A stretch of 64,000 bases of DNA, taken from assembly GCA_016841825.1 (NCBI GenBank), contig JAENYK010000012.1:124001-188000 (forward strand), in the 5' to 3' direction. Within the stretch, counting starts at the first letter, position 1. The number at the start of each line of letters is the position of its first letter. Below, one piece after another: positions 6,016-64,000 of this stretch. The position numbers and the translations under genes are program-made. The notes beneath the pieces were generated by a model, which was given only the letters and a program-made list of their open reading frames with translations, was not told the origin of the DNA and searched no databases. Source of the stretch: Halothermothrix sp. Lineage in GTDB: Bacteria > Bacillota > Halanaerobiia > DY22613.

Positions 6016-6067
6016 GGATTTTTCATTACGGAAAATTTTGCTTATAAAACAAAATGGAGGTAAGAAA

Positions 6068-8131: not shown

Positions 8132-8149
8132 GATGAAATAAAAATTTAA

Positions 8150-8292: not shown

Positions 8293-8296
8293 TCAT

Positions 8297-8357: not shown

Positions 8358-8367
8358 CAATATATCT

Positions 8368-8600: not shown

Positions 8601-8689
8601 TTGAAGTAGATGAAACCTCAGAATTTATAATAAATTAATCATATTTACTCAGAAGTTATTTTCTAGTCTCATGGCTAGAGTATATGTAC

Positions 8690-8794
8690 TAATTATGGGA
8701 AAAATTTTCTTTTGCAAAAAGGATAATATTAGATGGGTGGCAAAGTAAATTAAAAAGGAGTTTTTGCGTCTGCCATAGATTAGGAGGATTGAAT
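8690..8794 (+). other. duplicated aroE 5' leader fused to the response-regulator gene
   Basis: Bases 8716-8797 match 19592-19685, the untranslated leader of aroE, at about 85-90%. The match includes GGATGGGTGGCAAAGTAAAT-like sequence and an identical TTAGGAGGATTGAATATG, and it ends at the start codon. The response regulator therefore uses the ribosome site that aroE uses. Confidence 0.75.
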
Positions 8795-9493: not shown

Positions 9494-9496
9494 CAC

Positions 9497-10420: not shown

Positions 10421-10442
10421 TACTACGGAGCTTTCTTTTTTT
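10409..10442 (+). terminator. intrinsic terminator overlapping the kinase stop codon
   Basis: AAAGCTCTGTAG pairs with CTACGGAGCTTT and is followed by CTTTTTTT. It separates the two-component genes from the ABC transporter promoter. Confidence 0.85.
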
Positions 10443-10467
10443 CAAAACAAGAAAAAAGTAAGATAAC

Positions 10468-10500
10468 GGCAAGGTTTTGGCAAGGTTTCTACGCTATACT
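10468..10500 (+). promoter_or_regulatory. direct-repeat promoter of the ABC transporter operon
   Basis: Two identical copies of GGCAAGGTTT start at 10468 and 10479, exactly 11 bases apart, and a -10-like TATACT lies at 10495-10500. No proper -35 box is present; the second repeat occupies its place. Tandem repeats on one helix face over the -35 region are usual for OmpR-family activators, so the adjacent regulator is the likely binder. Confidence 0.6.
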
Positions 10501-10596
10501 TAAAAGGAGAAGGGAGAAAAGTATATGTTGGACAATTATTCAGGTGGAAATATCAAAACTTGAACGCAAAAAAATAGTTAAAAAAGGAGATTTAAA

Positions 10597-11520: not shown

Positions 11521-12232
11521 CCTTATTCAATCGGAGTTTCTAAAGCTACGACGTAGAAAATTTATCTGGCTGATGTTGTTTGCTGCTTTGTTCATGCCAC
11601 TTGTTGCTATATTTTATTTTAGTGGGGCAAATGCAACAGAAATAACACCTATACATTTTTACAAATGGACGGCCTTTTCCTACACGCTTTGGATTATTCT
11701 GCCCTTTGTGCTTGGAATGCTTTGTACGATGCTGATATACAACGAGAATCAAGAACAACTATGGATTATTCCTATCAGTAGGATGGGGTACTTTTTTAGC
11801 AAATTTGTGGTGGTTTTGTTTTATTCTATTTGCTTTATGCTGATTACCGCGGTTAGTTCCATTTTGGCGGGGGTCACGTCCGGACTGATTGTATTCACGA
11901 CTGACAGTATTTCTTTTTTGTTCATCAAGTGTCTGGAAATTGGGATTTTGATACCTTTGGCTATATTACCTATACTCGCGGTCACAGTTTCGCAGAAGGG
12001 CTATATCCTTCCAGTATGCGTAACCATTGTTTTTACATTTTTTGGATTTATCTTGCTTATGATAAATATGTACATCCACCCCCTTTCCAGTACGACGGCT
12101 ATTTTTATGCGAAATATTGAAGGAGTTGTTTTGGATGAGCCGGTAAACATGGGAAAAGCCTTTTTGTGTATCGGCATATGGGGAATTGCCTCAACTATTT
12201 GGGCGAAAATTGCGTTAGGAAAAGAAAAGTAG
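11513..12232 (+). CDS. ABC-2 type permease subunit 1
   Basis: About 239 residues with six membrane segments, starting with the basic QSEFLKLRRRKF helix typical of lantibiotic-immunity permeases (LanE/MutE type). The TTG at 11513 is chosen because GGAGGAG lies 6 bases upstream and the next upstream in-frame codons fall deep in the ATPase gene. The 8-base overlap with the ATPase gene suggests coupled translation. Confidence 0.8.
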   Translation: MLNLIQSEFLKLRRRKFIWLMLFAALFMPLVAIFYFSGANATEITPIHFYKWTAFSYTLWIILPFVLGMLCTMLIYNENQEQLWIIPISRMGYFFSKFVVVLFYSICFMLITAVSSILAGVTSGLIVFTTDSISFLFIKCLEIGILIPLAILPILAVTVSQKGYILPVCVTIVFTFFGFILLMINMYIHPLSSTTAIFMRNIEGVVLDEPVNMGKAFLCIGIWGIASTIWAKIALGKEK

Positions 12233-12982
12233 GTGAATGAAGTGAAAACATTATTATGGGTGGAACGATTAAAGCTAAAACGTTCAAAAATTCTATGGAT
12301 AGCTGTATTTTTTGCTGTCATGATAGCATTTATTGTGTTTATGCAGGGACAGTTTCAATATTATGGTCAGCGATATGTGGACGGAGTTACTTGGTACATG
12401 ACTGCAACACAATCCCTGGGGAGCTTATATGTGTTTCCTGCAATTATAGCGCTTATGGGTAGCTACATGATTTGTAGGGAAAATCAGGATGATACAATGA
12501 AATCTCTTGCGCTTATCCCCATTAGTGTCTCTAAATTAGTAGGAGCGAAAATGATCATGACAGCGATTTTTGCTGTTGCTCTTTACGCTTTTCTATTTAC
12601 AGTGACATTAATCGTGGAAGCGGTGCTTCATATCTCTTTGCTTGATTTGGGTATAGTACTTAGCTTTGCAAAAATGTATCTCTTAGAGGGGATAGGTTTT
12701 TTTCTCGCTGTATCTCCTATCATAGCCATAGTATATAGGTTAAAAAAGGGATATTGGTTTGCTCTGATATTTGCTGAACTCTATTCGTTCCTTGGTCTTT
12801 TTATCGGGATGCAGAGTACGATGCGCTCTATATATCCGATTACAGCAGTATTTTGTGCAGCAGGTTATTATAAAACAAACTCGATTCAATTTGTTATAAG
12901 CCTGTTCAGTTTGTTAACTAGCGGCAGTTTATCAGTGGTGTTTTTATATGGACTGAATAGAAAACATGATGTGTTTGATTGA
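12233..12982 (+). CDS. ABC-2 type permease subunit 2
   Basis: About 249 residues with six membrane segments, again beginning with a basic amphipathic helix (WVERLKLKRSKILWI). It completes an ATPase plus two-permease exporter. The GTG at 12233 directly abuts the previous stop; a GTG at 12242 fits the AGGTGA ribosome site better, so the true start may be 9 bases later. Confidence 0.8.
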   Translation: MNEVKTLLWVERLKLKRSKILWIAVFFAVMIAFIVFMQGQFQYYGQRYVDGVTWYMTATQSLGSLYVFPAIIALMGSYMICRENQDDTMKSLALIPISVSKLVGAKMIMTAIFAVALYAFLFTVTLIVEAVLHISLLDLGIVLSFAKMYLLEGIGFFLAVSPIIAIVYRLKKGYWFALIFAELYSFLGLFIGMQSTMRSIYPITAVFCAAGYYKTNSIQFVISLFSLLTSGSLSVVFLYGLNRKHDVFD

Positions 12983-13062
12983 TAGCAAATATAATTTTGG
13001 AGTTTAAATAATGAATAAAGTGAACTGGTTTTTCTCAATAATTATTCATAAAGAACTTAATT

Positions 13063-13107
13063 TGCCAAATAGGAATGGGCGATTACTATGCCCATTCCTA
13101 TTTGGCA
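13063..13107. terminator. 18-bp perfect inverted repeat between convergent operons
   Basis: TGCCAAATAGGAATGGGC at 13063-13080 is the exact reverse complement of 13090-13107, with a 9-base loop. It lies between the exporter operon (plus strand) and the secreted-protein operon (minus strand). Neither side has a strong T-run, so a bidirectional terminator is likely but not certain. Confidence 0.6.
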
Positions 13108-13187
13108 GCCATCAGTTGTTGCTTTTAGACTCGTGACTTTGTGTCTCTATCTTTTGACTGGTTTACCCTTGTCTGGAAAGAAATAAA

Positions 13188-13694
13188 TTATTGTAATTGA
13201 CTTACTGTATATAATATCTCCCCAGAGTAAATTCCGGGGTCAATCTCAAAGGGATTTAACCTTAATCGGAGATTTAGATAAAACAGATCGATACCATTAA
13301 AGGGCTTTTTTATCATTAATTGAGGTATCTGTGATAATTGATACCAGCTTTTACCATCTAGACTCCATTCCAATCGGGTAAAGGGGATTTTCCCTGGACC
13401 GTTGGATAAATATTCTTTGTCTGTGGAAATCCAGATGCCATAGGGAGCATTACTCGCCGTCCTAATCTGATGGACAGCTGGTTTAATAATAATAATCTGC
13501 TCTTCCCCCGAAACTGTAGCTGTTAAGAAGTCTTCTGCTGAAAAAACAATTTGTTTGGCGTCAATCTCAATATAGTATAGAGGGGGAACCTGTAACTTAA
13601 TTCTAAATTCCTGAATGAAGTCTGTTTTAGCATAGGCAGACGGAAGACAGAGTAGGAGGGTTGAGACAAGACTAATCCAGAGTATTTTTTTCAT
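13188..13694 (-). CDS. secreted beta-sandwich protein of the secretin locus
   Basis: A 168-residue protein with a signal peptide (MKKILWISLVSTLLLCLPSAYA, cleavage after AYA). The mature part alternates short beta strands and ends in DPGIYSGEILYTVSQLQ, the same closing motif (Pro-x-x-Tyr-x-x-x-Ile-x-[FY]-T-[VI]-S) found in the two other small proteins of the locus. I do not recognise a named family; pilin or fibre-subunit-like folds often end this way. ATG 13694 follows GAGGAGG. It is the last gene of the minus-strand operon. Confidence 0.6.
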   Translation of the reverse strand: MKKILWISLVSTLLLCLPSAYAKTDFIQEFRIKLQVPPLYYIEIDAKQIVFSAEDFLTATVSGEEQIIIIKPAVHQIRTASNAPYGIWISTDKEYLSNGPGKIPFTRLEWSLDGKSWYQLSQIPQLMIKKPFNGIDLFYLNLRLRLNPFEIDPGIYSGEILYTVSQLQ

Positions 13695-13710
13695 ATAATC
13701 TAACCTCCTC

Positions 13711-14247
13711 CTAATATAACTCACTCACAGTAATTGTAATAGTTCCTTCATACGTACCAGCTGGTTGAGCAGTTAATGAGTCGATCTGAATAGCACCATA
13801 AATGTTAAAATATGTGGTAACCTCGGTGTCATTTAGCAAGCGCTGTTGATAAATTTTACCTGGTTGAAAAGAATAAGCGCTGTTTTCAGGGTAGTTTACC
13901 CAATAGGTTGCATCCAATGTATAAGGTTTATTGGTGAATTCACCTGTGTAACTCAAATCAGTGACAGAAAAGTGAACTATAACCGGGATATTGGTCTTTA
14001 CCGCCATCTGTCCATACCCATTGGAATTCTCTCGATAAGTACCCTTTATTGGAGTCAAAATCTGAAATCGTACTGGGCTTTGTAAAATAGATATATGGAT
14101 AAAGGGATCATTGTCATGCTGAATATTAACTCCATCTGTTAGGTTCAAATGGCTGCTATTCACTTTAGAGGTTCCTACTGTAATCAGTACCCATCCAATC
14201 AACAATATAATTACTCCGATTTTGTGTAACCTGCGTTTAGCAAGCAT
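13711..14247 (-). CDS. membrane-anchored beta-sandwich protein of the secretin locus
   Basis: About 178 residues. A basic start (MLAKRRLHKIG) leads into one hydrophobic helix (IGVIILLIGWVLITVGTS), then an extracytoplasmic beta-rich domain ending in PAGTYEGTITITVSELY. That end matches the closing motif of the neighbours at 13188 and 15899, so the three are likely paralogues or share a fold. ATG 14247 is 8 bases after CAGGAGG; an upstream ATG at 14271 has no ribosome site. A decayed second copy of part of this gene is at 8150-8292. Confidence 0.6.
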   Translation of the reverse strand: MLAKRRLHKIGVIILLIGWVLITVGTSKVNSSHLNLTDGVNIQHDNDPFIHISILQSPVRFQILTPIKGTYRENSNGYGQMAVKTNIPVIVHFSVTDLSYTGEFTNKPYTLDATYWVNYPENSAYSFQPGKIYQQRLLNDTEVTTYFNIYGAIQIDSLTAQPAGTYEGTITITVSELY

Positions 14248-14263
14248 CAGAGAAGCCTCCTGT

Positions 14264-15802
14264 TTATTCATTTTTTAGTGTAAGATCTTTTTCGATTTTT
14301 TGCAGTTCAATATTATCGCTATATATTTTTATTTCAACATGATATAACCCGGGATTTAGATCTTTGGCAATTCCAGTTAAAAGCTGACTCTTGTTTGGAA
14401 GAAGCTGATCTACTCCTTCCGATAAAGTCAGTGGTATGGATTCAATAATACTGTCATTTTGACTAATTATTAAGATAGCTTTTGGGTTGCAGACGATGTT
14501 TCCCGTATTTTTAACACCCAACGAGAAGAGATAACCTTCTTCTGTAAAAATGGAATATAAGTTCTGTATCTCTATATCTCTTAGACCAGTGTCTCCAATC
14601 AGAATAGTCAAGGGAATTTTTTGCTGTTCTAAAGGTTGCTCTTTTTTCTGGGGAGGATAAGCCAGAAATTCTAAATAGCTGTGATAACTTCCCGGTGGGA
14701 TATCTTTTGGCACCACGCAGGTCACAAGTACTTTTTTAGATTGTCTTGCTCCGAGAAATATCTCCTCTTGATGGAATTGAATCCAGTTCAGATTAGAATG
14801 GCTATAATTGGCTTCCACTTCCTGAGCTTTAGTAAGAACCATTGTTTCTTCAGATGTTTCATTTCGTACATCAATGGCTAAAGTTTTTCTCTGGCCTGGC
14901 TGTAGTGTGGTTTCAATCTCCTGTTGTTCAATAGCAAATATATGCATTTCGTCAGCGTTGGAATAGTCAAACTGTCCTTCTGCTATCGTAATATGTTGAC
15001 TTTTAACAATCTGCCCATAGTCACCGTATTTTATAAATATCTGAATTGTGTAATCCCCTGGTGCAAGAGGTTTGGTGATCTCTGCTAAATACTGCACATG
15101 ACTTCCCGGATACATTCTGGTGATATCTAAATTGGCAGTGGCACTTGCTGGACTACGCATAATAACTCTTTCAATAAGATTTCGCTGTGCATCACGAATG
15201 GTTGCTTCACCCGATACTTCAAAATCCCAATCCGAATCATTCTTAATTTGAACCTCCAGAAGTGGTTGATTCTCTTCACCTGGAATCAACCCCCAACCAT
15301 CTACCAATTCAGCACGCTTACGTAAACCGATTCGATCAATTCGAATAATTAAGCGAACGGCATAACGAATCCGAAAAATTACTCCTTGTTGGTTATGTTG
15401 AGTTTGTGGCTCTATCATTAAGATTACAGTATGAGAACCTTGTGCATTTAGGGGTACTTTAACTTTTCCCCGAAGCGATATATTGTCACCTGGATAAATC
15501 TGCACTTCAGTTTTGTCTAATGTAATCCATTCAGCTTCCGGAAAAAATTCTACAGGTAATTGTTGATAGGTCATACTACCGTCTAAAATCTGAATCGGTT
15601 TAAATAAAGATACTCTGACTATTTCTGAATCGTCGGTAGGAGTTAAGGTTATCTCAAACCCTTTTTCCTCACCTGGTTTCATATCTAGTTCCAGCCCTAA
15701 TGGGCGGACACCAATTGCGATACTTTTACCACTACAAATAATGAATGAAATAACGATGAGAATCAATATAAGCATTGGGTAGTAATATGATTTCAATTTC
15801 AT
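14264..15802 (-). CDS. exported Ig-like protein, possible fibre chaperone or anchor
   Basis: A 512-residue protein with an N-terminal hydrophobic segment (about 5-24) and the rest predicted outside the cytoplasm. After IAIGVRPLGLELDMKPGE it shows a chain of Ig/NEW3-like beta-sandwich units: phrases such as GAKQ-like LGARQSKKVLVTCVVP, DIPPGSYHSYLEFL, LNPGLYHVEIKIY recur about every 120 residues. Such repeats occur in PapD-like chaperones and in DUF916-type cell-surface proteins, but no diagnostic motif lets me choose. ATG 15802 lies 8 bases after GGTGGAGG. It is flanked by secreted small subunits, which suggests it binds or presents them. Confidence 0.5.
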   Translation of the reverse strand: MKLKSYYYPMLILILIVISFIICSGKSIAIGVRPLGLELDMKPGEEKGFEITLTPTDDSEIVRVSLFKPIQILDGSMTYQQLPVEFFPEAEWITLDKTEVQIYPGDNISLRGKVKVPLNAQGSHTVILMIEPQTQHNQQGVIFRIRYAVRLIIRIDRIGLRKRAELVDGWGLIPGEENQPLLEVQIKNDSDWDFEVSGEATIRDAQRNLIERVIMRSPASATANLDITRMYPGSHVQYLAEITKPLAPGDYTIQIFIKYGDYGQIVKSQHITIAEGQFDYSNADEMHIFAIEQQEIETTLQPGQRKTLAIDVRNETSEETMVLTKAQEVEANYSHSNLNWIQFHQEEIFLGARQSKKVLVTCVVPKDIPPGSYHSYLEFLAYPPQKKEQPLEQQKIPLTILIGDTGLRDIEIQNLYSIFTEEGYLFSLGVKNTGNIVCNPKAILIISQNDSIIESIPLTLSEGVDQLLPNKSQLLTGIAKDLNPGLYHVEIKIYSDNIELQKIEKDLTLKNE

Positions 15803-15834
15803 CTCTAAATCCTCCACCTTTTAATTTTTAATTC

Positions 15835-15875
15835 GCTAACCAGAGGAGATATCTTAGTGTTTCCCTCTGGTTAGC
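15835..15875 (-). terminator. intra-operon hairpin downstream of the pilin-like gene
   Basis: GCTAACCAGAGG pairs with CCTCTGGTTAGC, 12 bp with a 17-base loop. It lies 24 bases after the stop of the 15899 gene and before the next gene. The T-run is weak. It may be an attenuator or 3' stabiliser that makes the first small subunit the most abundant product. Confidence 0.55.
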
Positions 15876-15898
15876 TTAGCTTGCTTAACTCATGTCTA

Positions 15899-16417
15899 TT
15901 AGTCTAGAGAAATTGTGAAGACAATTTCGGTACTGTAAGTATCAGCAGGCAAATCATACCAGTTATCCGGTAAAGCCGGGATTAATTCTACATCAGCGAA
16001 CCATTCACCATTGATGTAGTTACTACCCCATACTAGTGGAATTTGCCAACTGGCTGATTGATTTGCAGAGTTAATGGTAGCCAGGGTTTGGTTATTTATT
16101 TTAAAGTTCATCTGATAGCCAATTGAGAAATCATGAACCTGACCTACCAGGGGACCAAAAGTAGCAGCTACAGTTACCGGTGCATTCAAACGAAGCCGCA
16201 AAAAATTTTCTTTAAGGTAAGTATGGTCGCCAAAGTGGTCTCTTTTCAATGTTAGATTCCAGCAACCACCATTCATTACATGGAACTGACCAAATGGGTC
16301 TAAAGTTGCATTTATCTCCATAGTCTCAGTGCCACCATTAGTGGAAATGGCAAAACTCGCGATTGATAGACCAAATACTAAGGTCATTACCATCATTAAA
16401 ATAACTAGTTTTTTCAT
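15899..16417 (-). CDS. secreted pilin-like beta-sandwich protein
   Basis: A 172-residue protein with a clear signal peptide (MKKLVILMMVMTLVFGLSIASFA) and a mature part that begins ISTNGGTETMEI. It has a cluster of aromatic and charged residues in the middle, one Cys, and ends ADTYSTEIVFTISLD, the motif shared with the other small secreted proteins here. ATG 16417 follows GAGGAGG. The 282-base gap upstream contains no gene and could hold its own promoter. With a hairpin directly after it, it is the best candidate for the main subunit of an external structure. Confidence 0.6.
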   Translation of the reverse strand: MKKLVILMMVMTLVFGLSIASFAISTNGGTETMEINATLDPFGQFHVMNGGCWNLTLKRDHFGDHTYLKENFLRLRLNAPVTVAATFGPLVGQVHDFSIGYQMNFKINNQTLATINSANQSASWQIPLVWGSNYINGEWFADVELIPALPDNWYDLPADTYSTEIVFTISLD

Positions 16418-16699
16418 TAAAAAATTCCTCCTCATTGGTTATAAGCCTTAAATTTTGGGGTTGGCCGGTTTCACCATTAGCTTCCTACCATCCTATTGGT
16501 GACCAGTTAAAGAATGGCAGTTCACAGCTTCCAATGAGAAATTATCTAACCATCTACTTTTTAAACTATTCTGTGAGAGACCTAGTGATCAAACTCCTGG
16601 CATTTATCACCTCCTGATCTTAATAAATAAATTGAAATCTCTCTTCTTTCTGATACTCAAAATAATCTCGTTAGGGTAAACGAGGTTTGAAGCTTTAAA

Positions 16700-17947
16700 T
16701 TATTCTTGAATAAAATTTAATCCAAAGTGGAGTGATAGGTCTTGATTAACCTTTTGTTCCAGAAGTAAGTTGATACCAACTTCTGGAGAATACAGATAAC
16801 CAATCCCCAGCCGGTTAGTTACCTTTTCCTCCAGATAAATTCCTTCATACCAGGCTTTCCATCTATTTTTTTGATAATTAAGAATAACGTTCCAATAAGG
16901 TGTATGAAAGCTGAGACTATTTCCGCTATAACAGACTGGAAGATAAGAGATTTTGGCTTGCAATAAATCAATATTCATCTGATCTGTGATTCCCCAACGG
17001 AGATCTGCATTAATTCCGTCAGAATCAAGCTGACCGGATAATGCTAAACTTGTTGTCGGTAAAAAATAACTATAATTTAGCCGATAAGATAGTAGTTCAT
17101 CCTGGATTCGAAAATTGCAAAATAATTCATGTTCATTTTTATAGAAGTTATAATCAAGCCCTAACTCATCAAAAATGTAAAGGGTGGTTTCTTGACGTTG
17201 ATATTTCGGATTTGTCGCAATAAATTTATTAATTGCGAGCAAGTTACCAATGGTCCAATATGAACCCTGAGTGTCAAATATTTCCGGTGAGATAGGTATG
17301 GCCGTTAAAAAAAGAGCAAAATGCTTATTACTGTCTGCTGTCTTTCTGGTTAAAATTAATATTGGTTTAGTAGCACTTTCTTGAATCCAATTATTTACTT
17401 GAATATTTCTTATACTTCCCCAAGATGATTCACTTCTCATAATCAGGCGTGTAAGTATTCTTTGATTCTTGTTATCAATTGTCAGCGGAAGTAAACTTAG
17501 TTCAAAAGTTGTTTTCTTTAACTGTTGGAGTATCGTTTTTTCTGCCATTCTAATGGTCACAGGATACTTTTCCATGGTTATTAACCATGACAGATTTTCC
17601 GTTTGCTTGTCGATGGTCAGCTGATTGAGATCCAATTCTATATTCTTTTCACAATAGGTGCTGATTAACTCTAAAATCTGCTTGTTCGTTGAAAAAGTCC
17701 ATTCATTTTCCGTCTCTTCTTCGAATTCAAAATTGATCTTTTGAAATAAGGAATCTTCAAGTTCTTCAAAATAAAGTGAATATAGTACTAAGAAATTTTG
17801 CGAATCCAATGCAGGAAGTTTCCATTCCTGGTTAACCAATAATTTTGCCAGGTCTTTATTCAAGAGTGGTTGTGTCATGGTTTTTCCCGGTACACAGGTG
17901 GTGAAGAGGAGTAGCAGAATAAAAATTATTACTAACTTATTTCTCAT
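16700..17947 (-). CDS. exported protein with probable outer-membrane beta-barrel C-terminus
   Basis: A 415-residue protein with a signal peptide (about 1-22, VPGKTMT after it). The first 240 residues look globular. From about 245 to the end there is a run of alternating amphipathic strands with Tyr/Trp girdles (TLYIFDELGLDYNFY, WNVILNYQKNRWKAWYEG, LSLHFGLNFIQE), typical of outer-membrane barrels. No family is recognised. ATG 17947 follows AGGAGGG. It lies 18 bases after the secretin gene, so the two probably work together in an outer membrane. Confidence 0.5.
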   Translation of the reverse strand: MRNKLVIIFILLLLFTTCVPGKTMTQPLLNKDLAKLLVNQEWKLPALDSQNFLVLYSLYFEELEDSLFQKINFEFEEETENEWTFSTNKQILELISTYCEKNIELDLNQLTIDKQTENLSWLITMEKYPVTIRMAEKTILQQLKKTTFELSLLPLTIDNKNQRILTRLIMRSESSWGSIRNIQVNNWIQESATKPILILTRKTADSNKHFALFLTAIPISPEIFDTQGSYWTIGNLLAINKFIATNPKYQRQETTLYIFDELGLDYNFYKNEHELFCNFRIQDELLSYRLNYSYFLPTTSLALSGQLDSDGINADLRWGITDQMNIDLLQAKISYLPVCYSGNSLSFHTPYWNVILNYQKNRWKAWYEGIYLEEKVTNRLGIGYLYSPEVGINLLLEQKVNQDLSLHFGLNFIQE

Positions 17948-56355: not shown

Positions 56356-56559
56356 ATGGGTAAATCTAGTAAGAAAAAGCCAAATATGGGAGCGGGGATG
56401 TATAACAACGTAATAGGCCCCAATTATGAATTGGCTAGAGCATATGTACCGATTCAGGTATTCAATCAACAATATAGGCCTGAGGTGGCGCTACAGAAAG
56501 GTACAATTTTTCCTGAACTATATCGACCTTATCCCCCATGTTATAGGAGAAATGATTAA
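56356..56559 (+). CDS. cotJA: spore coat protein CotJA
   Basis: A 67-residue protein ending in the CotJA core: ELARAYVPIQVFNQQYRP, EVALQKGTIFPELYRPY. The Lys-rich first 25 residues are extra. GGAGGG precedes the ATG. First of cotJA-cotJB-cotJC, expressed in the mother cell in Bacillus and laid into the coat. Confidence 0.9.
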   Translation: MGKSSKKKPNMGAGMYNNVIGPNYELARAYVPIQVFNQQYRPEVALQKGTIFPELYRPYPPCYRRND

Positions 56560-56592: not shown

Positions 56593-57285
56593 ATGAGTAA
56601 AGATTGTGAATGCAAACATGATTATGAACATGATTCTTGTGAGAAAAAGTATGACAAAGATTGTATGAATCCTTGCCCAATGATGCCATGTATGGAAGGG
56701 ATGATGTCAATGCATCATATGATGCCCTGCATGGGAAATATGATGCCAATGCACCAAATGCCGATGATGCCCTGGATGGGAGGTATGATGCCTATGGAGC
56801 AGATGCCCATGATGCAGGGTATGTACGATATGATGCCTATGGAACAAATGGGAATGCCGCACGGTTATTGCATGCCCGGTGAACTAATGCCAATGTATCA
56901 GATGCCGATGTGTGGGGATGATTATTATGCCGACGAACTTGCTGGCCTGGAAGATTACTATGAAGATGATCATCATGAAGATTGTGAAGATTACGAGAAC
57001 TTTGTCGATGCTCTAAATGAAGCTTATCCCGATTTAAATGATGAAGCCAAATGTCTTCTAAAAAAACTAATGGAGATAGATTTTACGCTAATTGAACTCA
57101 ATTTGTATCTTGATACACATCCAACCGATCGACGGGCATTAGCCCAATTTAATCGCTTTGTGTGTATGAGAAAACCAATTTTGGAGAGATTGGATAAGGT
57201 TTATGGCCCGATTGCTCTAAATCAACCGATTCAATACCCATGGGCCTGGTTAAATCAACCCTGGCCCTGGAGAATACACTTTTAA
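56593..57285 (+). CDS. cotJB: CotJB with Met/His/Cys-rich N-terminal extension
   Basis: A 230-residue protein; usual CotJB is near 90. The C-terminal 95 residues are CotJB (LKKLMEIDFTLIELNLYLD, THPTDRRALAQFN, ending YPWAWLNQPWPWRIHF). The first 110 residues are a Met-rich tract with repeated MMPM-x-QMPMM units, several Cys and His (CECKHDYEHD, CMPG), then an acidic EDYYEDDHHEDCEDYE block. Met/His/Cys repeats of this type usually bind copper or other soft metals. Since CotJC is a manganese catalase, the extension could buffer metal or quench oxidants at the coat. AAAGGAGG precedes the ATG. Confidence 0.85.
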   Translation: MSKDCECKHDYEHDSCEKKYDKDCMNPCPMMPCMEGMMSMHHMMPCMGNMMPMHQMPMMPWMGGMMPMEQMPMMQGMYDMMPMEQMGMPHGYCMPGELMPMYQMPMCGDDYYADELAGLEDYYEDDHHEDCEDYENFVDALNEAYPDLNDEAKCLLKKLMEIDFTLIELNLYLDTHPTDRRALAQFNRFVCMRKPILERLDKVYGPIALNQPIQYPWAWLNQPWPWRIHF

Positions 57286-57300: not shown

Positions 57301-57507
57301 ATGTGGGTATATGAAAAGAAGTTAGAATATCCGGTAAGAGTAGAAGGCACAGATTTGAACCTGGCCTCATTGTTATATGAACAATACGGGGGTCCAGATG
57401 GAGAACTCTCTGCAGGTGTTAGGTATCTTAATCAGAGATATTATATGCCATTGAAAGAAGCAGAAGGGACATTGACTGATATAGGCACTGAGGAATACGT
57501 TCCATAA
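57301..57507 (+). pseudogene. cotJC: 5' part of cotJC (manganese catalase), interrupted by an integrated element
   Basis: The 68 residues start MWVYEKKLEYPVRV, continue YEQYGGPDGELSAGVRYLNQ and break off at LTDIGTEE, after which only YVP and a stop follow. Intact CotJC is about 190 residues and continues from this point with a helix holding manganese ligands (EE-x-AHLEM). The missing 120 residues are not found before the right edge. A serine recombinase gene starts 16 bases beyond the stop, in the other direction. The gene is therefore split, perhaps reversibly. AAAGGGGGG precedes the ATG, 16 bases after cotJB. Confidence 0.92.
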
Positions 57508-57522
57508 AGTTATCTGTGATTC

Positions 57523-59091
57523 TTATTTTACAGTAGGGAAGAGGATGAGTTCAAAATCTTCTGGATTGTGCCAACGTCCTCCTTTAGATCTGTAATATTC
57601 AACTTTACCAAGTATAGATTTTAGTAGTTGATTTTTTAAATCCAGATCATCTGTTTTGGTGTACATTTCAAGAACTTTTTCTAATTTGGGGATTAGAGTA
57701 TTAAGATTGTCTTCTTGAGCTTCTTCAATGCGAATATCTTCGTTAATTTTATTAATGGCTTCCCTGGTTTCTCGAATTTTTTCATTGAGTAACTTCGATC
57801 TGTCGAGAAAAGTATCAACATTGTAGATACCTTGCTCCAGAAGGTCATGAATACGGCCAGTTTGATTTTCCAGATTATGCAGTTCTTTTTGGAGGTTTTC
57901 TAAAGATTTCTCAAGAACGAGTTTTTTTGAAGTAGTCGGGGTTGGCTCGTCTTTTTCCCATTTGATTTTTAGATCTATGAGCCAATCGGTTAATGCAGTT
58001 AACAGACGATCTTCAACTATTTCCAACTTAGAGGAAACATTTTTGCATCCAGGAATTGGACACATTAAAGCATCTGGTCCTTTTTTATATGGCCGTCTTA
58101 CCATTCTGCGACCACAAACACCACAGATGATTATTCCACATAGAGGATTTTTAACCTTGGTACCTCTGGTTGGAACACGGGCAGAATTTACACTCAGATA
58201 CTTCTGAGCAATCTCCCAGGTCTTTAAACTGATGATAGGTTTATGTAAACCTTCAACTAGAATACACTCTTCTTCGCTTGATCTAGGGCGAGATTTAACT
58301 ATTTGTCCATCTTCCATCTTTTTAGTAGTCTTTCTCCAATTCCATCTAATCATTCCAATATATACTGGATTTCGCAACATATCAAGGATGGTAGATGTTA
58401 CCCAGATATCGCTTTTCGCAGGTGAAATTTTGAGTTCATTCAGTTTTCCTGCTATCATAGATACACCTAAAAGATGAGCTTCGCCATCAACTATCTCCCC
58501 TTTTGTATACCACTGGAAGATAAGTTTGACAATTTCTGCCTGTTCGGGATCAATTTCTAGTGTGTAGCCTTTCTGATTCTCTAGTTTTTTTCTACGGTAA
58601 CCAAATGGAGCTATACTTCCTAAGTATTTACCTTCTTTGACAGATGCGATTCTGCCCTGTTGTAATCTTCGATTTATTGTTTTGTATTCTCTTCGAGACA
58701 TAAAGAGACCGAATTCAAAATACTCTTCATCGAATTCGTTGTCTGGATCATAAGTCTTATGAGGAGTGATGATTTTAGTTTCACTGTATTTGAATGTCTG
58801 TGCCACTAACCCTTGATCTGCAGTATCCCCACGTGCGAGACGTTCCACTTCCATTACCAGTACTCCGGTCCACATACCTTGTTCCACTTCGGTAAGCAGT
58901 TGTTGCATTACTGGACGGGATGCAATTGTTTCACCAGATACAACTTCGGAGTGAATATGTGTAATATGAAGATTTCTTTTTTTCGCGAGTTCTAGTAAGG
59001 CTTTTCTGTGCCGTGCTAAAGTTTCACCTTCACCTCTAGCTTCAGCTTCCATGTCAGCTCTGGACTTTCGAAGGTATATACAGTATTGCAT
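57523..59091 (-). CDS. large serine recombinase
   Basis: A 522-residue integrase. The resolvase domain (1-150) has YLRKSRAD with catalytic Ser10 and the Arg residues in VMEVERLARG. A recombinase domain follows (about 165-290, GSIAPFGYRRKK), then the zinc-ribbon CGIIICGVCGRRM with CPIPGC, and a coiled coil at about 385-450 (LEKSLENLQKELHNLENQ) needed for synapsis. The 3' end faces the interrupted cotJC, as sprA and spoIVCA lie next to their attachment sites. A directionality factor is needed for excision; none is recognised in the visible part. Confidence 0.95.
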   Translation of the reverse strand: MQYCIYLRKSRADMEAEARGEGETLARHRKALLELAKKRNLHITHIHSEVVSGETIASRPVMQQLLTEVEQGMWTGVLVMEVERLARGDTADQGLVAQTFKYSETKIITPHKTYDPDNEFDEEYFEFGLFMSRREYKTINRRLQQGRIASVKEGKYLGSIAPFGYRRKKLENQKGYTLEIDPEQAEIVKLIFQWYTKGEIVDGEAHLLGVSMIAGKLNELKISPAKSDIWVTSTILDMLRNPVYIGMIRWNWRKTTKKMEDGQIVKSRPRSSEEECILVEGLHKPIISLKTWEIAQKYLSVNSARVPTRGTKVKNPLCGIIICGVCGRRMVRRPYKKGPDALMCPIPGCKNVSSKLEIVEDRLLTALTDWLIDLKIKWEKDEPTPTTSKKLVLEKSLENLQKELHNLENQTGRIHDLLEQGIYNVDTFLDRSKLLNEKIRETREAINKINEDIRIEEAQEDNLNTLIPKLEKVLEMYTKTDDLDLKNQLLKSILGKVEYYRSKGGRWHNPEDFELILFPTVK

Positions 59092-59541
59092 TAGATAACA
59101 CCAACCTTTCTATTTATTAATTTACTCTGAGTTGGTTTCCTATGTTTAATCATTTCTGATTTAAAACTTTTCGGTAAGTGGTACTTTAGGTGGAAAATTA
59201 AATAGTGTCTGATCTGTTGTTAAATTTTATCTATCATGGAGCTGACCTCCGTTATCAGTTGACCCAAGTGACATATTCTAACATATTCTCTGGATAGAAT
59301 TATATTCCTTCTGAAAATGGGAGTAAGATAGCCATGTTAAACAATTTTAGGGTTATTTATTGTGGAATTTTTGGTAATTTAGTGATATAATACGGATATG
59401 ATGAGTTTAAGGTGAAAAGTCTATCATATGGATAATAGATAATTTTATAAATTTGAAAATAAATTTATTTATATGAAAGGCGGTGATTGTAATGAATTTA
59501 TGCTGAGATATAGAATTATATGGGGGAAGAGGTGTAAGAAG
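59092..59541. other. intergenic region between recombinase and TPR gene
   Basis: It is AT-rich with no gene. At 59272-59290 the unit ACATATTCT occurs twice 11 bases apart, and TTGACC at 59260 is followed at promoter distance by TATTCT. A four-codon frame (ATG at 59492, stop TGA) follows the strong AAAGGCGGTG site at 59476-59485. These could be the recombinase operator and the remains of an earlier TPR start. Confidence 0.35.
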
Positions 59542-60521
59542 ATGGGAAAAAATTTTGAAAAAGCCGAAATAGCTTTTTCGAAAAAAGACTACTTTGAAGC
59601 AATTGAGCAAAGCATATTGTCTTTTGGCACTGCAAAGAATGTTGAATCGGTAATATTATTGATGAAATCTTATTATAATTTGCAGGTGTATAAAAAGGTT
59701 TTAACAAAGTCAAAGTTGTCTGAAGGTATTGTGAAAAATGAGCAGCAGGCTGTTCAGGTGGTCAGACTGAAAGCGAATGCTTTTACCCGTTTAGGGTTAT
59801 ATAACAAGGCAACTAGTGAATATGACTATTTGTTGCAAAAATACCCAGATAGTAAGCTGGCACAATTTGCTGGTGTGGTGGGCAAAGGAGCAGTTTATTC
59901 ATTTCGCTTAAAAAAGCTTGAATTGGATGAAACACCAATAGAGAGTAAACAAAAAGTTCAGAAAGATCTTGCCACAAAAGCATTAGAATGTTATCGACAG
60001 GCTACCCAATATGTACAGACAAAAAAGGAAGAGGGTTTGCTGTTAAACAATATTGCTTGTATTCACCAGATCAAAGGGGAGGATTTGGTGGCTTCAAAGT
60101 ATTTTGAAAAGCTCTAAAGTTATCTGAAGGATTTTTGAAGGCAGAGATATTAACTGGTTTAGGACTGTCTTTCAGCAGGTTGGGTGATGTTGAGCAAGGG
60201 TTAAAGCTATTGGCACAAGGTCGTGAGTTGTTACTTATTAAAAAGCATCAAGAAGGCTTAGGGAGGAATATCAAGACAGTGGGTATTATTGAAAAGGAAA
60301 GAGGTAATCTTAAGGAAGCTTATGCACATTTTTCTCAGGCTTTAAAAATATTTGCTGATAAAGATTTATTCCACCAGGCTGCAGAAGTGTCTGTGTATCT
60401 GGCTGATATTGCTCAAACCGAAGAGAAAAGAGTCAAATATCTAAGTGACTATTGTATTCATAATAAAGAGAAGAAGAAGGAGGAGAGTAGGTTGTGCGTA
60501 AGTTTCTTGGAATGCTATTAA
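59542..60521 (+). pseudogene. TPR protein, frame broken at about 60110 (RRNPP receptor-like)
   Basis: Two adjoining frames make one TPR protein of about 325 residues. The first (to 60117) ends ...GEDLVASKYFEKL; re-reading one base earlier gives EKALKLSEGFLKAEI and continues through LGLSFSRLGDVEQGLKLL and AYAHFSQALKIF to 60521. At least six TPR-like helical pairs are visible, with no DNA-binding domain at the N-terminus, as in Rap proteins. The break is not a canonical slippery site, so a mutation or a base error is likely. ATG 59542 follows AGAGGTG. A small exported-peptide gene overlaps its 3' end by 28 bases. Confidence 0.65.
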
Positions 60522-60634
60522 TTATAGGCATGTTTTTACTGAGGATGATATTTTTCAATGTTCCTTATACAGCAGATCCTGTATTACCTGGTGAAGAAGG
60601 CTATTCAGCTATAGTAATTAATACTGAATCTTAA
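60494..60634 (+). CDS. small exported peptide precursor (Phr/AimP-like arrangement)
   Basis: A 46-residue peptide starting at GTG 60494, 8 bases after AAGGAGGAG. The N-terminus is basic then hydrophobic (MRKFLGMLLIIGMFLL), and the C-terminal half is polar and ends EGYSAIVINTES, the layout of secreted signalling-peptide precursors. It overlaps the TPR gene's end in another frame, the same arrangement as rap-phr cassettes. It is too short to judge by similarity. A terminator follows at once. Confidence 0.5.
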   Translation: MRKFLGMLLIIGMFLLRMIFFNVPYTADPVLPGEEGYSAIVINTES

Positions 60635-60639
60635 ATTTG

Positions 60640-60667
60640 AAACCACTCCATTATTCGAGAGTGGTTT
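60640..60667. terminator. bidirectional terminator between the peptide and XRE genes
   Basis: AAACCACTC pairs with GAGTGGTTT over CATTATTCGA, with TTTGA and TTAATTA on its two sides. It serves two convergent transcripts. Confidence 0.8.
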
Positions 60668-61206
60668 TAATTATATAGTTTGAACTTAATATGTTGATCT
60701 ATAGCTTTTATATCATCTTCAGGTAGTCCTAATCTATAGAGTTCTCGTTTGATGATTTCAAAGGATTGTTCATCGTCTCTAACGAGGATATTAGGGTCTA
60801 TATTTAAAACATTAGCAATAGATTCTATTTCCTCCTGTGTAGGTTGTGTAGTTCCGTTTTCAATATTATTTAATCTTAATGGATCAATCTTTCCTTTTAA
60901 CAGTTTAGCCATGTCATAAAGTTCTAGCCCTTTTAATTTACGTTTACTTTTAATAATCTGACCCAGTTCTTTTTCCCTACTTTTGATATCTTCGCCTAAT
61001 AGAAATAAAACCGAAACTTTAAAGTAGGTGGCTAGTTTGTATAATTGAGGAACACCAATATCTAAGTTACCATTTTCCCAGCGACTTATGTATGTTGGAT
61101 GTTCTTGAATAGCTTCTGCAAGTTGTACTTGAGTTATCTTTTGTTCTTTTCTCAAAGCTTTTAATCGCTCACCGATAATCACTCGCTTGTGTTGCATGTC
61201 TTCCAT
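60667..61206 (-). CDS. transcriptional regulator with two XRE-type HTH domains
   Basis: A 179-residue protein. Domain 1 (about 13-67) is a clear HTH_XRE: LKALRKEQKITQVQLAEAI, then YISRWENGN. Domain 2 (about 80-140) is a second, weaker one (SKRKLKGLELYDMAKLLKG, LRLNNIENGTTQPTQEE). The C-terminal tail is helical. ATG 61206 follows GAGGTGGG. It is divergent from the small XRE gene at 61430, which is the layout of a repressor and its antagonist in phages. Confidence 0.85.
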   Translation of the reverse strand: MEDMQHKRVIIGERLKALRKEQKITQVQLAEAIQEHPTYISRWENGNLDIGVPQLYKLATYFKVSVLFLLGEDIKSREKELGQIIKSKRKLKGLELYDMAKLLKGKIDPLRLNNIENGTTQPTQEEIESIANVLNIDPNILVRDDEQSFEIIKRELYRLGLPEDDIKAIDQHIKFKLYN

Positions 61207-61289
61207 TGTTCCCACCTCTTTTCTTCTTACTAATTATATCTTATAAAGATCAAAGGGTCAAATGGTGTTGATTTATTTGAATATTCCAC

Positions 61290-61355
61290 TTGACATATTT
61301 GAAAGTTAATAGTATAATAATCTTAAAATATTGAAATATGTTTCAAATATTGAAA
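61290..61355 (+). promoter_or_regulatory. promoter and operator between divergent XRE genes
   Basis: TTGACA (61290) and TATAAT (61313) are 17 bases apart, an excellent promoter for the plus-strand genes. Downstream TTGAAA-tatg-TTTCAA (61334-61349) is a palindrome, and related half-sites ATTTGAA occur at 61276 and 61298, overlapping the promoter. They are probable repressor sites. Confidence 0.65.
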
Positions 61356-61429
61356 ATCAAAATAGGCATAAACCTTTTCTTTTTTCAAAAGATATTGTCC
61401 ATCTAAGTGGACAGAGGAGGTGATTGAAG

Positions 61430-61690
61430 TTGAGGGATATGCTTAGGAAAAGCAGGCAAAATAGGGGATGGTCAATTCGTGATACTGCAGAGAAAACAGG
61501 TATTACTAAGTCTCAATATCATAATATTGAGTTGGGGAGAGCTAACCCTAATCCAGAGGAGGCAAAGGTGATCTGCGATATTCTGAATTTGGAGTTCGGT
61601 AGTGCTTTTCCAGAAATGATTCAAATTTATCAAAAGGAAGTAGAAATTAGATCGGTTCTGGTATCTGGAATTCATCCGAATGCTATGTAA
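61430..61690 (+). CDS. small XRE-family regulator
   Basis: An 86-residue protein with an HTH_XRE domain: LRKSRQNRGWSIRDTAEKTG, then SQYHNIELGRANP. TTG 61430 is 9 bases after AGGAGG; the TTG at 61424 is too close. It leads the likely operon to the partition genes and may control them or oppose the divergent repressor. Confidence 0.8.
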   Translation: MRDMLRKSRQNRGWSIRDTAEKTGITKSQYHNIELGRANPNPEEAKVICDILNLEFGSAFPEMIQIYQKEVEIRSVLVSGIHPNAM

Positions 61691-61744
61691 TTTTTGAATA
61701 GGACGATCACTTCCTGAAATATACATATTCAAGGAGGTGGTGTT

Positions 61745-61906
61745 ATGGCAATTGTCGACCAGTATAAGCTAGGTGGGACCACAATTAAAATTGACGACAG
61801 TGCAATAGTTACAGATCCTGAAGAGTTAGAAGTCATTCACCAACATATAGCTAACGTTTGTTGGAGAATTGTCATGGCCGCAAGAGCTCAGGGGAAGAAT
61901 ATCTAA
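61745..61906 (+). CDS. small protein of unknown function
   Basis: A 53-residue protein (MAIVDQYKLGGTTIKIDD, ending MAARAQGKNI) with a strong AAGGAGGTGGTG site. It has a single Cys-Trp pair and a helical C-terminus. I do not recognise it. It lies between the regulator and the partition repeats in the same direction; its size would suit a recombination directionality factor, but no HTH is visible. Confidence 0.6.
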   Translation: MAIVDQYKLGGTTIKIDDSAIVTDPEELEVIHQHIANVCWRIVMAARAQGKNI

Positions 61907-61945
61907 CTATATCAGTAGAAGGCCATTATTGGCCTTCCAGTAGAA

Positions 61946-62100
61946 ATAAGACAAACTATCTTCTCTTTGTCTATTAAGAATAAGACTGGAGTAAATAGAG
62001 CAGATAGTCTTACAGATGTTAGATTATAGTAAGACCAAAGTAAGATTGCTGGTGGTTTTGTCTTACAGAAGTAAGACTAGATTAAAACTAAAATAAGACT
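61946..62100. repeat. TAAGAC repeats, candidate parC centromere
   Basis: TAAGAC or a one-base variant occurs at about 61947, 61981, 62030, 62041, 62072 and 62094, and reversed (GTCTTA) at about 62007 and 62060. Spacings are mostly near multiples of 11 bases. They lie directly before the actin-like gene, where ParMRC-type centromeres with their promoter are found. The hairpin GAAGGCC/GGCCTTC at 61918-61937 precedes them. Confidence 0.6.
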
Positions 62101-62126
62101 GCCAAAAAATAAGAGGAGGAAGAAGA

Positions 62127-63221
62127 ATGGAGAAAATTCATATTTTTGCACCAGACTTGGGGAATAGTTATACTCATTTTGTGAAACCAGAGACTTTAGA
62201 GGTGGTGTCAATTCCATCTTTGATTGCTCCTGCCAGGAAGATTAGATACACTGAGGAGTTTGGAGATCTTTCATCTAGTGAAAAGGGAAATGAGATTCAG
62301 GAGATGATTCTGCAGACAGATGAAGGTACATTTTTTGTTGGTCATTATGCTTATCTTAAGTCTCGAAATGGAGTAAAGTTGTCTCTCGACACTCAGCAGT
62401 CAATGTTCATTAAAGATAAGCTTTTGAAAACTTCTATGGCCATGGCACTCCCACAGAGATGTCAGGTGAAGTTAGTGTTAGGTCATCCGTATTCTGAGTC
62501 AAGCCTTGCTAAAGAGTATGAGAGGATGGCTTTGGGGGCACATGAGTTTGGATTTAATGGTAAGGAGTACTGTCATGAGGTGATAGAAGTTATAACCATG
62601 GCACAACCAGTAGCTGCTTTTTTAGGAATTGTAACCGACAGCTTTGGAAGAACGCTTAAAGAATATATCCCGTATTTCAATATTCCAGTTGTAGTGATCG
62701 ATATTGGCGGTGGAACGGTGGACTTCTGTTGGATTGAGAAAAACCCAATAAATGGAGAACTTGAAGTGGTGGATGAATATTCTGACTCTAAATGGTTAGG
62801 TGTCTGGTACAGTCTTGGTTTGATTAAGGAGGAAATAGCAGTAAGATATGGTGTTGAAAAGCGAATTGTTGATCTGGAGTATGAATTGAAAGGTAAGAAA
62901 TCTCTGGTCAATATAAAAGGGGAAATGGTCGATATCTCAAAGTTGAAGAAATCTATGTATGAACAGACTTCTGTTGATATCCTTACGCTAGGGATAAACC
63001 TGTGGAAGGATGCTAAAGGAAAGATCGGTATAGCGTTTTCTGCGGGTGGGGGATCAGAGACATTTCAGGAGGTACTAATTCCTCGATATGATAGGTTATT
63101 TACTCAATATGCTTTTGCAGATAAGTTTGCTATAGCAAGGGGTCAATGGACGAAAGCTGTTAAGATGTGGGGAATACCTAAAATTGAGAAAGTAGTGGAA
63201 AGTGGTGAAGTAGATGGTTAA
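62127..63221 (+). CDS. parM: ParM-like actin-family plasmid segregation protein
   Basis: A 364-residue actin-fold ATPase. Phosphate-1 region is FAPDLGNSYTHFVKP, phosphate-2 VVVIDIGGGTVDFCW, and the adenosine motif FSAGGGSETF. Such proteins form filaments that push plasmid copies apart, attached through a ParR adaptor at parC. AGAGGAGGAAG precedes the ATG. The stop overlaps the next gene by 8 bases. ParM-like actins also occur in phages and in some phage-plasmids, which fits the recombinase at the element's edge. Confidence 0.87.
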   Translation: MEKIHIFAPDLGNSYTHFVKPETLEVVSIPSLIAPARKIRYTEEFGDLSSSEKGNEIQEMILQTDEGTFFVGHYAYLKSRNGVKLSLDTQQSMFIKDKLLKTSMAMALPQRCQVKLVLGHPYSESSLAKEYERMALGAHEFGFNGKEYCHEVIEVITMAQPVAAFLGIVTDSFGRTLKEYIPYFNIPVVVIDIGGGTVDFCWIEKNPINGELEVVDEYSDSKWLGVWYSLGLIKEEIAVRYGVEKRIVDLEYELKGKKSLVNIKGEMVDISKLKKSMYEQTSVDILTLGINLWKDAKGKIGIAFSAGGGSETFQEVLIPRYDRLFTQYAFADKFAIARGQWTKAVKMWGIPKIEKVVESGEVDG

Positions 63222-63477
63222 GTCCTACAAAGTTAGGACATATCCGACTCTATATCCGTGGATACCAGTACATATGGAGATCATCAGAGAGTATGAGAAA
63301 TGTCCAAATAAGTCAGAGTTCGTTAGAATGGCTTTAGAGCATTTTGCAAAAAGTGGGTTTCCGGGGTTACAATCTGGTCAACCACAGGTGTTAGATAATT
63401 TACGTCAAACCAAACGGGTAACCACTGAGCAAGGTAAAGGTGAGGTTTATGATGATGACCCATTATCAGATTTATAA
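63214..63477 (+). CDS. ParR-like partition adaptor
   Basis: An 87-residue protein. KSYKVRTYPTLYPWIPVHMEIIR is followed by KSEFVRMALEHFAKSG, the sequence pattern of a ribbon-helix-helix domain, and the C-terminal 35 residues are charged and disordered, ending in acidic DDDPLSDL. In ParR the tail caps the actin filament. GTGGTG precedes the ATG, which overlaps the actin gene. Identity is inferred mostly from position. Confidence 0.6.
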   Translation: MVKSYKVRTYPTLYPWIPVHMEIIREYEKCPNKSEFVRMALEHFAKSGFPGLQSGQPQVLDNLRQTKRVTTEQGKGEVYDDDPLSDL

Positions 63478-63489
63478 GGATGTGGTCTA

Positions 63490-64000
63490 GTGAGTAGTGA
63501 TACCCAAAGTATTAAAATCGATTTTAGATTGCTAGAGAATACAGAATTCAATAGGTTGATGAGATCGGGGTGCTTTAACACCTATTGTCAGATAAGAAAG
63601 ATGATCTGGCGTTCCCTTAGACCATCTGTGATCGGAGATTTGCATATTCGATATATGAGCGGTAGTTTAGCCGCTGCGTGTAAAACGAAGAAACTGGCCC
63701 AGCTTTGTTCGGTAACTCCAAGGCAGGTTAGAAATGACATTCGGAAAATGAAAGAGGAATATCAGATAGTGGATTGTGTCTCTGAAAACGATTATTATGT
63801 TTTTATCCTGGGTGAGTGGAATGAGATTGAGAGAAATGGAAAACCACTACGATATGAATATTATTATCTGGATAAATATGCGACTTTTATTCAACGTCAA
63901 TCAGAGGATGAGGAAATGAATTTCCCCAGCGAGGAAAAAGATTTCCACGAAGTGCGGAAATTTATTTCCCCCAAGGAATATATAACCCGCTTTATTCACG
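63490..64000 (+). CDS. replication-initiator-like protein (3'-truncated by window edge)
   Basis: The first 170 residues are visible from GTG 63490, 12 bases after the ParR-like gene. The central part (KKLAQLCSVTPRQVRNDIRKM) is a helix-turn-helix of the type in plasmid and phage initiators, after a hydrophobic N-terminal domain (LRPSVIGDLHIRYM). The polar EDEEMNFPSEEKDFHEVRKF linker carries three inverted repeats in its DNA. I do not recognise a named family; a DnaD or lambda-O-like role is inferred from layout. Confidence 0.55.
   Translation, partial: MSSDTQSIKIDFRLLENTEFNRLMRSGCFNTYCQIRKMIWRSLRPSVIGDLHIRYMSGSLAAACKTKKLAQLCSVTPRQVRNDIRKMKEEYQIVDCVSENDYYVFILGEWNEIERNGKPLRYEYYYLDKYATFIQRQSEDEEMNFPSEEKDFHEVRKFISPKEYITRFIH
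63912..63969. repeat. three phased GGAAA-N4-TTTCC repeats inside the initiator-like gene
   Basis: GGAAATGAATTTCC (63912), GGAAAAAGATTTCC (63933) and GGAAATTTATTTCC (63956) are 21 and 23 bases apart, about two helix turns. The spacers differ, the palindromic arms do not. Repeats inside an initiator coding sequence mark the origins of lambdoid and many Firmicute phages. Confidence 0.65.

Follow-up and report, generated by a model that had tools for sequence, protein, structure and literature searches.

The spore-coat Mn catalase gene cotJC is interrupted in this genome by an element that carries a large serine recombinase at the break, and both parts of the gene are kept in frame. Judging from the sequence, we consider it likely that a site-specific integrative element is docked in cotJC and is cut out in the mother cell by a sigma-E/SpoIIID-controlled excision factor, which would restore CotJC. 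The window, i.e. the whole 64-kb stretch of DNA analysed, comprises positions 124001-188000 of contig C27 of a 5.08-Mb genome in 43 contigs (G000). The genes and attachment site at the break are as follows:

56356-56559, plus strand: cotJA (67 aa), 61% identical to the cotJA preceding an intact cotJC in the nearest relative, G001
56593-57285, plus strand: cotJB, with a long Met-rich N-terminal extension (PF12652, E 6e-23)
57301-57496, plus strand: 5' half of cotJC, codons 1-65, ending where the crossover falls, within the second Glu codon of GTEE (PF05067 positions 1-67)
57491-57496, plus strand: attL core AGGAAT, common to C11 21276-21281 (attR); joining here restores CotJC
57497-57521, plus strand: attL arm on the element side, ACGTTCCATAAAGTTATCTGTGATT, inverted partner of ATCACAGATAACTTCATGGAACGA at the C11 end in the reconstructed attP palindrome
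57523-59091, minus strand: large serine recombinase (integrase), 522 aa, with Resolvase, Recombinase and Zn_ribbon domains (PF00239, PF07508, PF13408)

The preliminary description had reported cotJA and cotJB as intact, cotJC as breaking off after LTDIGTEE and a large serine recombinase as facing the break from 16 bases away, and the family searches bore this out. The gene order cotJA-cotJB-cotJC is kept in relatives. The cotJC frame of the window spans 57301-57507 and matches PF05067 up to position 67 (E 6e-19); homology ends after ...LTDIGTEE, where YVP and a stop codon follow, and the 3' end of the recombinase lies 16 bases beyond this stop. The rest of the gene had been expected farther to the right. 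It is not on C27, which ends 38 bases beyond the window, but a search of the genome with the Mn_catalase model located it in frame at C11 21269-21631 (model positions 63-196), at the far end of the element. This 3' half (129 aa) is intact, and the same search found an intact Mn catalase paralogue on C19. Plain loss of cotJC, of which a missing 3' part had been named as a sign, was rejected, as the half is present and in frame.

When the two host halves were joined at the common core AGGAAT, a CotJC of 190 aa was obtained that is gap-free at the joint and 62-68% identical to the intact CotJC of relatives (BLAST identities to correctly oriented loci). The assembly holds the split pieces and the one paralogue; the joined (excised) junction is absent from it. 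The left junction reads GGCACTG-AGGAAT-ACGTTCCATAAAGTTATCTGTGAT and the right junction ATCACAGATAACTTCATGGAACGA-AGGAAT-TTGCTCACTGGGAG, so that the joined host sides give ...LTDIGTEEFAHWEIIATLIW..., while the joined element sides, corresponding to the circle junction, form a palindrome whose arms match at 22 of 25 positions, compared to a maximum of 17 in 2000 shuffles. Its centre dinucleotide GA is the same in three other elements, and the palindrome is typical of a large-serine-recombinase attP. The crossover falls in codon 65, and the corresponding residue in an alignment with the L. plantarum Mn catalase 1jku is number 66; we take the manganese ligands of 1jku to be Glu66 together with Glu35, His69, Glu148 and His181. 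The sequence features that define skin-type intervening elements are present at this locus: a sporulation gene divided in frame, with codons 1-65 of cotJC in the window and the rest on C11; an element-encoded serine recombinase with its three Pfam domains at the break; and a short direct core with flanking inverted repeats that permits precise joining.

The element measures at least 27.8 kb, with 6.5 kb on C27 and 21.3 kb on C11. Its middle is absent from the assembly because C27 ends in a multicopy repeat, which is also found at the ends of C2, C10, C30 and C33 and inside C7. Comparison of the contig ends gave no overlap closing the gap between C27 and C11, the repeat lying in between. Halves on two contigs, together with an estimated contamination of 4.72%, could reflect an assembly artefact in which the halves come from different genomes or form a chimera. 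We give this practically no credence: attP arms that match each other are found at the two element ends, the reading frame continues between the host ends, and the same split is seen in many other genomes, several times on one contig.

Related recombinases and their target in cotJC

The recombinase matches the integrases of PHROG 95 (E 1e-102), its nearest solved structure is the SPbeta integrase 9dxh (E 7e-50), its frame is intact and its catalytic motifs are conserved. It was aligned with seven IMG/VR relatives, a collection of 84,980 species genomes was scanned, and the best 80 loci of a longer list were analysed. At 61 of these 80 best loci, across Bacillota, a cotJC fragment was present in the retrieved DNA. 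Fifty-seven cotJC halves lie less than 700 nt from the recombinase end, at a median distance of 47 nt; 36 are 3' halves on the recombinase strand and 21 are 5' halves on the opposite strand, the arrangement of the window. The cut point in the relatives is normally around codons 61-69, and by sequence the clade shows a preference for this cotJC codon as its insertion point. On the recombinase tree the cotJC label was clustered (14 changes vs 23 in shuffles). A supported group of nine members lacks any nearby cotJC half, and therefore the cotJC target is not universal in the clade. Among the 16 genomes without a cotJC half at the recombinase locus, several have the gene split at the same site elsewhere and several have an intact cotJC or none. 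No close recombinase was found in same-class relatives of the host, and there was no same-species empty site to compare.

The elements range from 3.25 to 98.5 kb in size. Those with both halves on one contig include one of 3.25 kb from an Alkaliphilus MAG, one of 3.5 kb from C. carboxidivorans P7, one of 4.4 kb, and one of 4.7 kb from T. praeacuta, as well as larger ones of 7.2 kb (A. transvaalensis), about 13 kb, 46-62 kb and 98.5 kb (C. galactitolivorans). In silico joining at a shared core regenerates CotJC in the four smallest elements having both halves in the retrieved DNA. With the frame restored by joining the host halves and dozens of parallel loci, the skin-like layout with a restorable CotJC that had been proposed is supported, and on sequence grounds we regard the skin-like reading of the element as well supported.

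The interrupted halves also show signs of constraint. A natural stop codon is reached at 115-169 aa by 34 of the 38 3' halves of relatives; three others run off the retrieved DNA, and the one at locus L106 stops early, at 79 aa. The dN/dS of interrupted 3' halves is 0.03-0.12. In four pairs of loci the divergence of the recombinases is similar to that of the 3' halves (dS of recombinase and half, respectively, 0.79/1.03, 1.00/0.91, 0.94/1.17 and 1.61/1.30), and in these the dN/dS of the half is 0.08-0.12; therefore, purifying selection appears to have acted during the split state. Several dN/dS values for 5' halves came from misframed fragments and were left out. The low values seem best explained by long residence of the elements with the gene product still required.

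The pair L061/L063 shows the opposite, with a recombinase dS of 0.03 and a half dS of 0.52, i.e. a recent transfer between hosts. This would suit an ordinary mobile element that uses the conserved cotJC codon as attB and leaves when induced for transfer, by way of the cI-like repressor or a peptide signal, unconnected to sporulation and with the break in cotJC as a tolerated cost. The intact Mn catalase paralogue points in the same direction, as it could make the loss of cotJC tolerable. We nevertheless consider such an explanation unlikely, given that both cotJC parts are kept in 20 of 20 genomes searched whole (these were reached via recombinase loci and have elements of 3.5-98.5 kb) and that long-interrupted halves have a dN/dS of about 0.1.

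Two further cut places were found in cotJC. One, near codon 33 (between GGP and xGE), lies beside a different serine recombinase in several genomes, namely Clostridium sp. D33t1, C. methylpentosum, L085, L104 and L126; the insert of Clostridium sp. D33t1 is 3.2 kb long, has the shared sequence GGACCGCATGGCG and carries a superoxide-dismutase-like gene. The other was seen in Lachnospiraceae MD329 and L107 and lies around codons 133-136, where AAE aligns with Glu148 of 1jku. Two insertions are present in some genomes of this set, and cotJC is therefore in three pieces there. It is conceivable, although we hold this tentatively and slightly more against than for, that cotJC is a general developmental dock of Bacillota, entered by different serine recombinases at three Mn-site codons (approximately Glu35, Glu66 and Glu148), with some genomes doubly inserted and the minimal elements of 3.2-3.6 kb being excisable "DNA introns" that have taken up residence and leave only in the mother cell. 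The dock of the window would then hold a ParM-carrying plasmid-like element whose circle could persist.

Candidate excision factor and proposed mechanism

The following features of the window concern the control of excision:

61290-61318, plus strand: sigma-A-type promoter TTGACA-17-TATAAT ahead of a small HTH gene, read from the sequence
61696-61726, plus strand: predicted promoter of the candidate excision factor, with GAATA (-35), AGGACGA (SpoIIID-like box) and AATATACAT (-10)
61745-61906, plus strand: candidate recombination directionality factor (RDF), 53 aa (leave-one-out HMM, E 8.7e-9, to the family beside related recombinases)

The minimal elements (3.25-4.7 kb) hold the recombinase and an ORF of 58-77 aa related to the window ORF 61745-61906. 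By iterated HMM, 57 members of this small-protein family were collected in the recombinase loci. An HMM built without the window member finds it, and among the small ORFs of C11 and of the element part in the window it is the only match. In an AlphaFold model (pLDDT 91), the 53-aa protein forms a beta hairpin and then a long helix. A Foldseek search of the whole PDB placed SprB, as found in the SPbeta integrase complex 9dxd, first, with a non-significant E-value of 4.7, and the likeness of the modelled fold to SprB is only suggestive. A PHROGs search with the protein gave no match. Its NCBIfam match to PrgJ (16.5 bits vs a cut-off of 144) was dismissed as chance, and so were the short matches of the small-protein profile to complex I among solved structures. 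Its family travels with these recombinases, and the 53-aa protein is probably the excision factor of the element.

Many family ORFs are preceded by a conserved motif, KMATAGGACAA-N11-[CA]ATA, or more fully KMATAGGACAAA-N11-[CA]ATANNNT, mostly 30-50 nt before the start codon. It is matched by 23 of the 57 upstream regions vs 0.29 in shuffles when ATA, GAC and ATA are fixed in the search pattern; positions outside the pattern are conserved as well (K in 22/23, M in 21/23), and the spacing is near-constant. We take KMATA...CATA to be a sigma-E type promoter and WWRRACARNY to be the B. subtilis SpoIIID box. The motif would thus consist of sigma-E-like hexamers overlapping a SpoIIID-like box. In the window, the site GAATAGGACGA...AATATACAT stands in the same register as in 22 other RDF upstream regions, its -10 ends 18 nt before the start codon, and its SpoIIID-like box carries one mismatch (GGACGA). 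When both strands of the 64-kb window were scanned, a motif of this type was found once, at the 61745-61906 gene, and spoIIID is present in the genome.

By a relaxed pattern, the motif is enriched at cotJC-splitting loci (25/40 vs 4/17, Fisher p 0.01), and this mother-cell-type motif at the candidate excision factor speaks further against an ordinary mobile element. Even by the relaxed pattern, it is absent from 15 of the 40 cotJC-splitting loci with the small protein; two of these, the Clostridium elements L062 and L064, have the sigma-K-like CACA-N14-TCATAAAyTA instead. The plain sigma-A promoter at 61290 lies upstream of the same operon as the candidate factor, and therefore some expression of the operon outside sporulation is possible.

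In the mechanism that we propose, the large serine recombinase would join attP to attB inside cotJC, with the crossover at the GA of the metal-ligand Glu codon, and cotJC would remain split in growing cells. The 53-aa protein would be switched on in the mother cell by sigma-E RNA polymerase together with SpoIIID; it would bind the recombinase and reverse its direction. The element would then exit as a circle, and cotJA-cotJB-cotJC would become one operon for the full spore-coat Mn catalase, while in the forespore the element would stay integrated and be inherited. Here we infer the function of the small protein, the identity of the box as a SpoIIID site and the mother-cell timing; restoration of cotJC by excision during sporulation is presumed on the same sequence grounds.

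Plasmid-like genes of the element

The remaining features of the element in the window are:

59473-60521, plus strand: TPR protein gene with a frameshift near 60120, then a small secreted-peptide-like ORF (from about 60495)
60667-61215, minus strand: XRE/cI-like repressor with two HTH domains (PF01381, E 3e-26; RstR-like by NCBIfam, below the cut-off)
61424-61690, plus strand: small HTH regulator (PF12844/PF01381)
61947-62099, no strand: centromere-like cluster with 7 of the window's 23 TAAGAC/GTCTTA sites
62127-63221, plus strand: ParM-like actin (PF17989, PF21522; PHROG 691 partition protein, E 7e-28; NCBIfam ParM)
63214-63477, plus strand: small ORF in the ParR position after parM, without a match in the family search
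63490-64000, plus strand: possible initiator, without a match in family searches, its 3' end inside the multicopy repeat that ends C27

The partition genes announced in the preliminary description proved to be ParM-like (PF17989, PHROG 691 and NCBIfam ParM), and with the upstream repeat cluster they make up a partition system of the plasmid type. The suggestion that a plasmid-like circle could replicate fared less evenly: the ParM protein and the centromere-like repeat agree with it, but no initiator is recognisable and the putative one runs into the repeat. The C11 part carries an apparent operon of nucleotidyltransferase, phosphoribosyltransferase, ABC-2 transporter, TPP-dependent dehydrogenase, glycosyltransferase, radical SAM and epimerase-like genes, as well as two further TPR genes. 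Neither the 6.5 kb at the C27 end nor the scanned C11 proteins include a recognisable gene for phage structure, packaging or lysis, the middle being unassembled. Judged by its ParM gene, the visible part appears plasmid-like and not phage; for the element as a whole a phage origin is possible, given the unassembled middle.

Part of this content would fit an exit triggered independently of sporulation, as expected of an ordinary mobile element. The XRE repressor and the sigma-A promoter upstream of the small HTH gene could serve such an induction, and so could the TPR/peptide pairs at both element ends; the TPR gene with its peptide ORF may be a Rap-Phr-like arrangement, although this is a guess. 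The initiator in the repeat and the frameshift in the TPR gene mean, on the other hand, that part of the element may be decaying, as it would after a dead insertion that had cost the host cotJC and left the halves as relics. This is very improbable, since neither the halves nor the att arms are damaged, joining gives an in-frame product with 62-68% identity to intact relatives, and the recombinase keeps its frame and catalytic motifs. We retain regulated excision in the mother cell as the preferred reading.

Comparison with known intervening elements

The known elements that intervene in sporulation genes are a handful of separate cases, in sigK, spsM, spoVFB, gerE and yabG. No report of cotJC as the target of an intervening element was found in the literature searched, outside of which most subscription journals and preprints fall. 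A CotJC-like catalase gene is mentioned next to the C. difficile phage phi027, which fits cotJC as a target (PMC11222575). What the cotJC elements offer is one gene as the recurrent target of a recombinase clade across many Bacillota families, with a shared candidate excision factor and a shared mother-cell-type promoter, and therefore the evolution of programmed DNA excision is open to comparison, including the way in which a mobile element subjects its exit to the developmental programme of the host and the minimum size that such an element can reach. Since the codon pair recognised by the recombinases is highly conserved, they also lend themselves, as a natural series, to work on how serine integrases recognise attB. 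Direct tests are permitted by cultured hosts, namely Clostridium carboxidivorans P7, Tissierella praeacuta and Alkaliphilus transvaalensis.

The skin element of C. difficile, in sigK, likewise has a large serine recombinase (CD1231) beside the break of a mother-cell gene. Excision of skin requires the factor CD1234, which is controlled by sigma-E and SpoIIID (PMC5025042), a control like that predicted for the candidate factor of the window; CD1231 and CD1234 are compared here by description only. In contrast to skin, the target here is a coat catalase and the element is plasmid-like. SPbeta in spsM of B. subtilis (SprA/YokA, SprB/YotN) has a recombinase of the same architecture (29% identity; PDB 9dxh), a late mother-cell surface gene as target and a small excision factor, SprB, the top but non-significant fold match. 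Unlike the cotJC element, SPbeta is a full 130-kb phage with another target and other att sites. The integrase of the Paenibacillus phage phiIBB_Pl23 is 56% identical to the window recombinase, and the core GGTACAGAAGA lies just past its stop codon, but phiIBB_Pl23 is a temperate phage and its RDF-like gene is without the mother-cell motif.

The gin element in gerE of Bacillus cereus ATCC 10987 (GirC/GirX) is also a non-phage gene-intervening element with a serine recombinase and an RDF; it differs in its target and its three recombinases, and no ParM system is mentioned in the description consulted (PMC5595907). In the yin element in yabG of Clostridium botulinum V73, a serine recombinase adjoins the 5' part of the sporulation gene and the circle was detected (PMC10747680). 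Yin was reported as unique to one isolate, whereas the cotJC elements are spread over Bacillota (PMC10747680 for yin).

Further insertion sites in cotJC

Near codon 33, cotJC has a second insertion site, where a different serine recombinase is found. Insertions close to this codon are seen in the following fetched loci:
L146 (genome G178, contig C2, 112300-116300)
L147/L148 (C. methylpentosum)
L104
L126
L157/L158

Both cotJC insertions are present together in some genomes, so that the gene lies in three pieces. The codon-33 element of L146 (3.2 kb) carries a candidate superoxide-dismutase-like gene, named by eye (653-1438, reverse strand), which sits within the catalase gene that its own element splits.

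A third insertion site is the AAE codon of cotJC, which aligns with Glu148 of the L. plantarum Mn catalase:
L156 (genome G194, contig C22, 600-12100), the site adjoined by a distant serine recombinase
L159 (genome G196)

At its N-terminus, CotJB (encoded at 56593-57285 of the window) is extended by a long stretch rich in Met (MPMHQMPMMPWMGGMM...).

Relatives of the recombinase

In Paenibacillus cellulosilyticus (L153, NZ_CP054613), the recombinase is 46% identical and a cotJC 5' half lies 3.4 kb off; the replicon that carries them is 2.7 Mb in size and a plasmid by its listing. No cotJC half was found near the recombinase in a supported group of nine loci (L085, L107, L110, L115, L120, L121, L124, L127, and L130), which probably use another target site or gene.

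Cargo and TPR genes

A multicopy repeat at about 63983-64000 of the window and the end of its contig, C27, runs into the putative initiator gene, and several other contigs end in the same repeat. The cargo operon and the TPR protein genes, the latter at both element ends, are:
L005 (element locus), 84-16905, apparent cargo operon (nucleotidyltransferases, PRPP and sugar enzymes, TPP dehydrogenase, radical SAM, ABC-2 exporter)
window, 59473-60635, TPR gene, frameshifted
L005, 18108-19458, TPR gene
L002 (element locus), 265-1221, TPR gene

Two of these TPR genes are followed by small secreted-peptide-like ORFs, an arrangement that could possibly represent Rap-Phr-like signalling.
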